A DNA stretch of 38,037 nt from a virus: the IMG/VR virus record IMGVR_UViG_3300037805_000447, positions 1 to 38,037 of that record, one strand, 5' to 3'. Made by a program: the position numbers and the translations under genes. Under the pieces are notes generated by a model. That model made no database searches. It was not told where the DNA came from and saw only the letters and a program-made list of their open reading frames with translations. Below, in pieces: positions 23,937-27,051 of this stretch (position 1 is the stretch's first letter; the number at the start of each line of letters is the position of its first letter).

Positions 23937-26189
23937 TTAGTTGGGTTCTCCGTGTGACGGTGCGGCATTGATAATGTTTGTGGTGTTACTCGTTGAACCC
24001 GACACTGGTTGTTGTGAAGCATATATAGCTTGAACTATTTGTTCCATATATCCTCTATTCTCACGAATAGTGTTTGCTAAGAACTGATTAGCGCTTTCAT
24101 TTCCACCGTGTTGTTTAATTAAATTGAACTGATCGGCTATCTCTTTAGGTGTCTCCACCATCAGATCGTTTTTCAGATTCTCTAAATTATGAGGTGTTAG
24201 AGCCGCATCGCCTAACTCTGGCTCACTTGATAGAATGGTACCTATCACACCATCGCTACTAACACCCAACTGGGCATCTTCAAATTGTTTAATGTCCTTA
24301 AACTGTTTAGTGGAGTCTTGAACTGGTTTTGATACTATAGCGACTTCTTCTTCAATTTTATCTTGTTTTCTCGCTTGTATATCAGCCTCGATTGATAAAT
24401 TATGAGGTGTTAGAGCCGCATCGCCTAACTCTGGCTCACTTGATAGAATGGTACCTATCACACCATCGCCTAACTCTGGCTCACTTGATAGAATGGTACC
24501 TATCACACCATCGCTACTAACACCCAACTGGGCATCTTCGAATTGTTTAATGTCCTTAAACTGTTTAGTGAAGTCTTGAACTGGTTTTGATACTATAGCG
24601 ACTTCTTCTTCAATTTTATCTTGTTTTCTCGCTTGTATATCAGCCTCGATTGATGCTATCTTCGAGTTGAAATCAAACCCAGCTACTCTCATCACAGTGC
24701 CTAAAGCACTATCTTTAAGCCACTTCAACGTGCTGATTCTCATTTCATCTAAAGAGTTAGCAACAGTCTTAAATATTGATTTGATTGGATCCAATATATA
24801 TTCACTAGCGAGCGCGGTGATACTATCTTTCATACCAACCACGGCACCTGCCATACTATTGCCTATATTAGACCAGAACTCCGTGGTGAATAACGAGCTG
24901 ATGATATCGGTTATTTTGAAACTGTCCAGCCACGCTGAAGCATTATCAGCGCCCAGCCATCCTAATATAGAAGATACACCACTCTTAACTAGGTCTAATA
25001 AGCCACCGAAAACACTATTAACGATGCCTGCTAACCCTTTGCCTATCGCGGATGACCAACCACCTTCCTCATAACCCTTAATACCCTCATTGATTCCGTT
25101 CCACACACCCATAATGATAGTTAATGGATAAGCGACCTTAGATATGATACCGCCTAACACACCCATAAACTTAGGAAGGAGTGAGATTGTTTTACTGAAG
25201 AAGCTGATGGTTTTACTTACAGCATTACCAACTATAGAGACTGCTTTAAAAAGGCGGGTCGTAGCTGACCACTTCACCACAATTGACCCAAACGCTTTGA
25301 TTGTGTCGATCATAGGAGCAATCGTTTTAGATATAGTGTTAAACCCTTTAATGTTCTTTATACTGGCAACAGCATTAGACATAGGCTTAGCCAATAGTGA
25401 TAATTTATCCGATATCGCTGTTTTAACAGCTTTCAGCGCGTCTATAACTGGATTAGCGGCTACCAATACAGAAGCACCTAAAACACCTTGCTTCAGAGCA
25501 TTGATTGAACTTAGGAATTTACCATATACCGCTGGCATGAATCCACTAATCGCACCCTCTAATTCATAACCACCATCTTCCTTATTACTTGATAATGTGA
25601 AGAAATTATTTAATCGTGTAGTGAATGAGCCAAATGCCTCAGAAATTTTATCACTATACGTATATAAACCTTCTATTACTACCACTATAGCACCTGTCAT
25701 AAGTGCTATTCTTCTCGTTAGGGACGATAATATATCACCTAGAATTGATTTTTTACCGATCTCAAGATCTGTTGTATAAGGATCACTTTCACTTGTTTGT
25801 TTACCTTCCTTCTCTCTATCACGTAACGCCTCATCGTTCTCCTTCGCCTTGTTCTCCAATCGAAGGCGTTCAGTATCTTTCTTATCATCTTCGATCCAGT
25901 TAGCAACTACAGTATTCGTGTGGTTTCTAAATAAACCAACAAGATCACTTAAATGATCTGAAATTGTACCGAGAGTTGATTCAACACCTGTACTTAACAC
26001 TGTTGATGTGTTCCCATGTGTTAAAGACAATAAACTCACTGAGTTTGACAAGTTATCTATAACACTGTTCATATTGGAGAATATAGACACACCTTCATCA
26101 GAGAACATTCTACTCTCTTCAAACGCGCCATTTATCACCATTAATTTTGATTCAATGGGTGGTAGTAATGGTAGTGACATCTCGCTCAT
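23937..26189 (-). CDS. 29: Tape measure / baseplate hub protein, gp29-like
   Basis: This 750 aa protein has a coiled N-terminus, a charged stretch (WIEDDKKDTERLRLENKAKE), and long hydrophobic Gly/Ala-rich helices (for example FMGVLGGIISKVAYPLTIIM) typical of tape measures. Its place just after gp26/gp51 matches T4 gp29 (590 aa). The start ATG overlaps the gp51 stop (ATGA). A recent in-frame tandem duplication occurs near residues 512-668. In this protein class length sets tail length, so the duplication may matter. Confidence 0.75.
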   Translation of the reverse strand: MSEMSLPLLPPIESKLMVINGAFEESRMFSDEGVSIFSNMNSVIDNLSNSVSLLSLTHGNTSTVLSTGVESTLGTISDHLSDLVGLFRNHTNTVVANWIEDDKKDTERLRLENKAKENDEALRDREKEGKQTSESDPYTTDLEIGKKSILGDILSSLTRRIALMTGAIVVVIEGLYTYSDKISEAFGSFTTRLNNFFTLSSNKEDGGYELEGAISGFMPAVYGKFLSSINALKQGVLGASVLVAANPVIDALKAVKTAISDKLSLLAKPMSNAVASIKNIKGFNTISKTIAPMIDTIKAFGSIVVKWSATTRLFKAVSIVGNAVSKTISFFSKTISLLPKFMGVLGGIISKVAYPLTIIMGVWNGINEGIKGYEEGGWSSAIGKGLAGIVNSVFGGLLDLVKSGVSSILGWLGADNASAWLDSFKITDIISSLFTTEFWSNIGNSMAGAVVGMKDSITALASEYILDPIKSIFKTVANSLDEMRISTLKWLKDSALGTVMRVAGFDFNSKIASIEADIQARKQDKIEEEVAIVSKPVQDFTKQFKDIKQFEDAQLGVSSDGVIGTILSSEPELGDGVIGTILSSEPELGDAALTPHNLSIEADIQARKQDKIEEEVAIVSKPVQDSTKQFKDIKQFEDAQLGVSSDGVIGTILSSEPELGDAALTPHNLENLKNDLMVETPKEIADQFNLIKQHGGNESANQFLANTIRENRGYMEQIVQAIYASQQPVSGSTSNTTNIINAAPSHGEPN
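24184..24654 (-). repeat. Nested tandem duplication in the tape-measure gene
   Basis: A 213-bp unit (71 aa) at 24184-24396 is repeated at 24397-24654 with only two or so base changes. The second copy carries an extra 45-bp tandem repeat (15 aa, DGVIGTILSSEPELG) in its middle. All changes keep the frame. Confidence 0.92.
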
Positions 26190-26356
26190 TTATTTTTCTC
26201 TTCTTGTTCTTTGATGTGCTTTACTTGAAGACCTATGTATATAGATCTCTCCCAAGGTAACATATTCTCCAGCTCTGTTATAGAGTACCCGTGATGAGCA
26301 ACCAGCGCGAAATTAATCTCGTAGTAGTTTCTTAGGTTATCATCAAGGGCTATCCG
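26186..26356 (-). CDS. 51: Baseplate hub assembly protein gp51-like, made by -1 frameshift
   Basis: The frame encodes RIALDDNLRNYYEINFALVA, then HHGYSITELENMLPWERSIY and a charged helical tail, the pattern of gp51-like proteins next to gp26 in marine T4-like phages. There is no usable start codon: the frame is closed by TAG 16 codons upstream of the slip site and then has only ATT/ATC-type codons. It lies in the -1 frame after a T TTT TTC heptamer at the end of gp26. The likely product is therefore a gp26-gp51 fusion of about 288 aa. Confidence 0.75.
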   Translation of the reverse strand, partial: RIALDDNLRNYYEINFALVAHHGYSITELENMLPWERSIYIGLQVKHIKEQEEKNK

Positions 26357-27051
26357 AAAAAACTCGATAAACCCTCCAATCTAATAACATTTTTTTCTCC
26401 ACAAGACGGACATATTACTTCAGAGTTATATGTGATCTTCGGCATGTTCTCCATGAATGTGTTCATTTTAAGGAACACTTCTTCAGGTAGCGCCTCTATC
26501 CAGTCAACGAGTTCGCTGTTGCTATATGAACTCGCTTTGTGTATAGTGTCGCCGTCATATACTGAACTAATCATCGCTGCTATTAGATTGAATGATTTTT
26601 CAATTTTTGTGGCCCCCTCAACATTTAAACCAGACATGGACGGATATCTCATTTCAATGCCCATAGAATCTGATATCTGTATCACGTTGTCGCCTTCATC
26701 TACTGTATTAAGGACGACTTCATCTAGATTAATCTCAGCAGGCACCTCTCCCTCACACTTCGAGCATTTTGTACTGGCGGTGATGATCTCTCCGATGCTC
26801 TTCTTCCTCAACTGGATGAATATGTGCTCAATATCGAAGTATGGCAGCTCCTCAACACTCTTTATTTTACCCATTGTACAGTTGTCTATGATCTGAATGA
26901 TGGCATTGAACATATCCCCTTCATCTTCAGATTCTAGAGCCATCATAAGGATCTTCTCTTCCTTAACATTGAATGCTCTATATTTGATGACCTGTTGTGT
27001 TGATGGTAGTGTTAGTTGGTATGTTGCGTAATCTATTTGTGGTAAACCCAT
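26350..27051 (-). CDS. 26: Baseplate hub protein gp26-like
   Basis: This 233 aa protein (T4 gp26 is 208 aa) has QLTLPSTQQVIKYRAFNVKE, then EKILMMALESEDE, DIEHIFIQLRKKSIGE, a treble-Cys-type pair (CSKCEGEV) and a C-terminal CPSCGE, ending LEGLSSFFG. This matches marine gp26 proteins closely. Such proteins sit directly before the tape measure, where other phages encode tail assembly chaperones. A slippery T TTT TTC in the last codons may direct some ribosomes into gp51. Confidence 0.9.
   Translation of the reverse strand: MGLPQIDYATYQLTLPSTQQVIKYRAFNVKEEKILMMALESEDEGDMFNAIIQIIDNCTMGKIKSVEELPYFDIEHIFIQLRKKSIGEIITASTKCSKCEGEVPAEINLDEVVLNTVDEGDNVIQISDSMGIEMRYPSMSGLNVEGATKIEKSFNLIAAMISSVYDGDTIHKASSYSNSELVDWIEALPEEVFLKMNTFMENMPKITYNSEVICPSCGEKNVIRLEGLSSFFG
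26356..26362 (-). other. Slippery heptamer T TTT TTC for -1 frameshifting
   Basis: In gp26 the codons AGT TTT TTC GGA TAG form T-TTT-TTC in the correct phase for simultaneous slippage. After the slip, reading continues CGG ATA GCC CTT GAT GAT AAC in the gp51 frame, avoiding the gp26 stop. Confidence 0.7.

Follow-up and report, generated by a model that had tools for sequence, protein, structure and literature searches.

The gp51 gene of a marine T4-like virus has no start codon of its own, which raises the question of how its frame could be translated. We examined the whole of IMG/VR record IMGVR_UViG_3300037805_000447 (38,037 nt, referred to here as the window), in which gp26, the gp51 frame, and an ORF of 750 aa all lie on the minus strand. 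Phages lambda (gpG/gpGT) and P2 (E/E+E′) make a short and a long product by a −1 frameshift 5′ of the tape measure gene, and a preliminary description of the window had proposed gp26 and gp51 as the T4 counterparts of G and GT. We find it very likely, from sequence and its conservation, that gp26 and the start-less "gp51" are one gene giving two tail assembly chaperone (TAC) products through a −1 frameshift. The features concerned are the following.

26350 to 27051, minus strand: gp26, putative short chaperone (TAC-N), 233 aa from ATG to TAG; matches PF12322 (T4_baseplate; E = 2.5e-65) and phrog_150 ("baseplate hub"; E = 3.2e-65); AlphaFold2 model with a pLDDT of 91.3.
26372 to 26377, minus strand: Shine-Dalgarno (SD)-like GGAGGG, 9 nt 5′ of the heptamer, duplex energy of −9.8 kcal/mol; probable frameshift stimulator.
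26356 to 26362, minus strand: slippery heptamer T TTT TTC in the zero frame of gp26, recognized by sequence and conservation.
26350 to 26352, minus strand: gp26 stop codon TAG, one codon past the heptamer.
26186 to 26380, minus strand: −1 frame annotated "gp51," open from stop to stop, 64 aa; matches phrog_634 ("baseplate hub assembly catalyst"; E = 1.7e-22), has homology to the C terminus of T4 gp51, and bears signs of coding constraint.
From 26356, minus strand: predicted TAC-C domain of the 288-aa TAC-NC fusion, being the post-slip part of the −1 frame.
26280 to 26356, minus strand: stable RNA stem 3′ of the heptamer (z = −3.22), not conserved in relatives.
23937 to 26189, minus strand: 750-aa ORF, probable tape measure protein by its position and by a homologous, length-variable ORF in relatives; its start overlaps the gp51 stop.

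The final codons of gp26 in the window are AGT TTT TTC GGA TAG, and translation through a tandem −1 slip at T TTT TTC joins GLSSFF to RIALDDNL in a protein of 288 aa, the length that the preliminary description had predicted for a fusion. Its account of the gp51 frame as start-less and −1 to gp26 also holds: the first ATG comes 31 codons past the slip, in the middle of the domain, and neither GTG nor TTG precedes it. The frame closes with a TGA (26188 to 26186) that overlaps the ATG at 26189 of the 750-aa ORF (ATGA), in agreement with the claimed place just before a tape measure gene, if that ORF is what it probably is. Besides phrog_634, the gp51 frame matches the C-terminal end of phrog_150 (positions 227 to 281 of 282). 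The only in-frame copy of T TTT TTY among 7,705 codon positions, counted over 25 larger ORFs in the window, is the one at the end of gp26.

We fetched 80 related loci from IMG/VR and added isolates to obtain 86 comparable loci. All IMG/VR loci with a complete gene end have a zero-frame T TTT TTC or T TTT TTT no more than three codons from the stop, and the −1 frame is open for about 54 to 64 aa wherever the contig is intact and long enough. Aligning the gp26-gp51 junctions, as had been suggested, revealed a conserved heptamer: it is kept in 86/86 loci, a count that leaves out the Ackermannviridae and Vibrio phage D495 group discussed below. In the non-redundant set (36 loci, <85% identity), all 36 have it against 12.4 expected from synonymous codon choice, an excess that carries no formal probability because the loci share descent. 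Other Phe-Phe pairs of the same genes provide a comparison, with the heptamer in 0/18. The site thus has the X XXY YYZ form of a −1 frameshift signal, lies in the zero frame, and is conserved beyond codon usage.

A run of T could also give a fusion through slippage of the RNA polymerase rather than of the ribosome. The heptamer is itself such a run and lengthens to 8 T in a small number of loci (L003, L092), but the window and 22 of the 36 non-redundant loci have just 6 T followed by C. Six T is short for transcriptional slippage, and we regard this explanation as extremely unlikely.

The −1 frame itself was compared over the first 16 codons past the slip in 33 marine loci. In this frame none of the 33 has a stop, while the other two frames are interrupted by stops in 33 and 31 loci. 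Differences between loci fall preferentially on the third codon position of the −1 frame (2412, 2075, and 4531 at positions 1, 2, and 3), and the ratio of synonymous to nonsynonymous codon differences is 2727:3102, the other frames giving 753:4943 and 554:5094. Read as protein-coding sequence, the −1 frame is therefore under constraint 5′ of any start codon. In 18/33 loci the first 15 post-slip codons contain no ATG, GTG, or TTG, as is the case over 31 codons in the window; constrained codons that lack a start must be reached from gp26.

These data bear on two further explanations. One is that gp51 is translated on its own, as a small separate protein, by termination and reinitiation at the gp26 stop, with the upstream SD-like GGAGGG serving reinitiation. 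An ATG overlaps the stop (TAATG or TGATG) beside the heptamer in phages VH7D, Moby, and Atu_ph04, and an overlapping ATG without the heptamer is found in LIMEstone1 and Vibrio phage D495, as reinitiation would have it. The constrained, start-less codons of the window and of the 18 marine loci argue against it, however, and it leaves the conservation of T TTT TTY unexplained; we consider it very unlikely. The other explanation is that gp51 is a decayed remnant, or that an assembly error has split one gene. gp51 is indeed often annotated as short or missing, but many contigs and isolates, independent of one another, show the same split with the same heptamer, and coding constraint acts on the −1 frame. 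The conservation data already contradict this explanation, to which we give next to no credence. A single gene with two products would also account for the annotations, since many records would then list a gp51 that is start-less, truncated, or missing. Relatives are encoded by 1,162 phage records, and among the matches listed, the best ones all come as two ORFs.

Two candidate stimulators flank the heptamer. SD-like potential in the 36 loci peaks about 7 to 10 nt 5′ of it, and the mean best energy (−5.88 kcal/mol) is lower than that of synonymous shuffles (−4.71 kcal/mol; standard deviation, 0.25), none of 200 being as low. An AGAGG-type sequence is present at the same peptide in T4-type gp26 genes that have no heptamer, which calls for caution in reading this signal. 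The dnaX frameshift is stimulated by an SD-like site located some 10 nt upstream, and the GGAGGG of the window (26377 to 26372) probably aids the slip in the same manner. Folding energies were compared with those of mononucleotide shuffles. On the 3′ side, the stem at 26280 to 26356 is specific to the window: relatives have no conserved equivalent, and RNAalifold gave no consensus pairs 3′ of the heptamer in 23 sequences or in an anchored alignment.

We propose that most ribosomes would terminate at the TAG and release TAC-N (gp26, 233 aa), while a minority would pause at T TTT TTC, probably aided by the SD-like site, and move back by a single nucleotide, both Phe tRNAs then pairing with TTT TTT. 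Reading past the slip would then produce TAC-NC. The N domain may form a coat on the tape measure protein, as in lambda G/GT, and the tube protein may be brought in by the C domain, which belongs to the less abundant long form. We infer that ribosomes slip in vivo at some efficiency, that the SD-like sequence plays a role, and that the products act as chaperones, from what was observed, namely, the sequence, its conservation, the constraint on the −1 frame, homology to both T4 proteins (gp26 and gp51), and structural similarity to a known chaperone. Points against the frameshift are that a conserved downstream RNA structure is absent, that structural Z scores are moderate, and that Ackermannviridae and D495 have the layout without the heptamer.

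In T4, genes 26 and 51 adjoin on opposite strands (divergent), each with its own start codon and neither with the heptamer. Against the T4 gp51 family, a profile of the marine fusion aligns through to the C-terminal end (E = 3e-19); against the T4 gp26 family, it aligns as far as the junction (E = 8e-27). The short product is thus homologous to T4 gp26, and its extension reaches the C terminus of T4 gp51. Taken by itself, the C domain matches the gp51 family at E = 1.1e-6, compared with 0.54 for the gp26 family. T4 gp26 and gp51 also match each other (E = 1e-18, profile comparison), and of the 282 positions of phrog_150, T4 gp51 covers 13 to 280 and T4 gp26 covers 14 to 235. By these profiles, T4 gp26 and gp51 are paralogues, gp26 corresponding to the short product and gp51 to the whole fusion. 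With the two paralogues encoded by separate genes in T4, only the C-terminal domain of T4 gp51 has its counterpart in the marine "gp51" ORF. Reinitiation leaves this in-frame long form of T4 unexplained.

In a tree of the N domain, in which the root is arbitrary, T4-type gp26 sequences form one group and T4-type gp51 sequences another; the two join with a support of 97/93 and stand apart from the frameshifting genes. Together with the profile matches, the tree agrees with a single duplication on the T4 lineage; from then on, the short and long forms would have had genes of their own, and the heptamer would have been lost. The preliminary description had held an ATG-started gp51 with no slippery site to speak against a frameshift. 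T4 has exactly that, yet it is not fatal to the frameshift reading, because the duplication accounts for it. The proposed equivalence with G and GT was right in that there is a short and a long form, and it receives support from heptamer conservation, the coding constraint in the −1 frame, the place 5′ of a probable tape measure gene, and a structural match to phage HK97; it needs amending for T4 itself, which uses separate genes and in which gp51 is the whole fusion. The proteins are homologous between T4 and the window, whereas the T4 genes are divergently oriented and the tape measure gene 29 comes after 51-27-28.

Two observations were made in passing on T4-type loci. In phage JSE (L083, 4758 to 5868), two adjoining short "baseplate hub" ORFs lie between gp51 and a gp28-like gene, where T4 has the single gene 27, which may reflect splitting of the gene or a frameshift introduced in sequencing. 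In a 167-kb contig (L120, 3001 to 3746), a 746-nt match to T4-type gp51 contains internal stops, from a sequencing error or a broken gene. This locus, in which gp51 is not readable in one frame, was left out of the clean comparison, as was L119, whose gp26 was badly extracted.

The marine loci carry the heptamer, as do Kyanoviridae isolates and phages VH7D (Schizotequatrovirus), Moby (Menderavirus), and Atu_ph04 (Pootjesviridae); relatives of Atu_ph04 gp26 were not found among the viral contigs searched. The heptamer is not universal, since Ackermannviridae (L085, L090, and L095 to L109) and Vibrio phage D495 (L088) share the two-ORF gp26/gp51 layout without T TTT TTY. The Ackermannviridae junction, ATT TTC ATT TAA, is invariant in the sequences examined. 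A possible start overlapping the stop is ATG in LIMEstone1 and D495 and only ATT in Det7 and its relatives, and the small ORF of Det7 resembles phrog_634 (E = 0.0027).

We tentatively suggest, as a single joint reading that may well prove wrong, that T4-related phages have three routes to the long or C-terminal chaperone: a frameshift, a duplication, and a route free of the heptamer. Marine, Vibrio, Stenotrophomonas, and Agrobacterium phages might use a −1 frameshift with an SD-like stimulator, and T4 might rely on gene duplication. Ackermannviridae and some Vibrio phages might either reinitiate (at ATG in LIMEstone1, at ATT in Det7) or slip at the non-canonical ATT TTC ATT TAA. The ratio of short to long form is predicted to be set by frameshifting in most lineages and by two separate genes in T4. 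The "genes 26 and 51" of cyanophages and marine T4-like phages are most likely one gene with two products.

The abstract of the 2022 study by Vladimirov and colleagues is said to name T4 genes 26 and 51. That study identified the tail assembly chaperone genes of T4-like phages (Vladimirov, Gautam & Davidson, Virology 2022, 566:9-15). It is cited in PMC10885494 for T4-like phages with one short and one fused long gene and no frameshifting, and in PMC12846349 for poly-T slippery sequences in the TAC-N genes of T4-like phages. The idea of a frameshifted T4-like chaperone was therefore published in 2022, and our locus is a further example. As far as these accounts describe them, the phages of that study share short and long chaperone genes and poly-T sites with the window, which differs in coming from an uncultured marine virus. 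PMC12846349 also describes a similar locus in Pseudomonas phage Adele and the Andersonviridae, with TAC-N, a conserved poly-T motif, a −1-frame TAC-C, and a tape measure gene; there, the motif is GTTTTT and the phage families are different. The conserved SD-like sequence and the heptamer-free Ackermannviridae, with ATG or ATT over the stop, both of which, like the codon statistics, come from our analysis, may be additions to Vladimirov et al. (2022). The value of the locus lies in these two elements and in confirmation from an uncultured marine lineage.

Evidence on the chaperone identity of gp26 comes partly from structure. Among 999 chains aligned with its AlphaFold2 model, the top match was 3fgx, an uncharacterized protein (Z = 8.3), the second was 2ob9, the tail assembly chaperone of HK97 (Z = 7.6), and the third was a protein from a Vibrio PICI-like element (Z = 5.2). 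The match to 2ob9 covers residues 1 to 86 of the model (84 residues; rmsd, 4.3; identity, 8%) and is supporting rather than decisive, Z scores of 7.6 to 8.3 being within reach of unrelated folds. A sequence search of the PDB returned no relative, and Foldseek alone against the PDB returned nothing significant. Structural comparison of a T4-type gp51 model gave no chaperone match, the absence of which does not rule one out. Unlike 2ob9, gp26 continues for about 145 more residues with CxxC pairs. Its likeness to lambda and P2 is one of layout, not of sequence comparison: the design is alike, the lambda slippery sequence differs from T TTT TTC, and gp26 has an extra Cys-rich C-terminal half.

A review (PMC3004832) lists T4 gp26 and gp51 as hub assembly chaperones and gives gp51 as absent from the particle. 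A tail assembly chaperone would be expected to bind the tape measure protein and to be missing from the mature virion; the gp26 homologue of LIMEstone1 carries the annotation "confirmed structural protein." Given the moderate Z scores, the short and long design, and the place 5′ of a long, homologous, length-variable ORF, a tail assembly chaperone is the best reading of gp26, which would link the T4 "hub" genes 26 and 51 to this protein family.

The 750-aa ORF had no match in phage records. It is probably the tape measure gene, judging from its position and from homology among unannotated ORFs, as relatives have a homologous ORF of variable length 3′ of the gp51 frame. Within it, at 24183 to 24654 of the window, is a 191-nt duplication whose two copies are 99% identical and start 258 nt apart, with an inner 45-nt tandem repeat. 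The duplication is recent and, if the ORF is the tape measure gene, would alter tail length.
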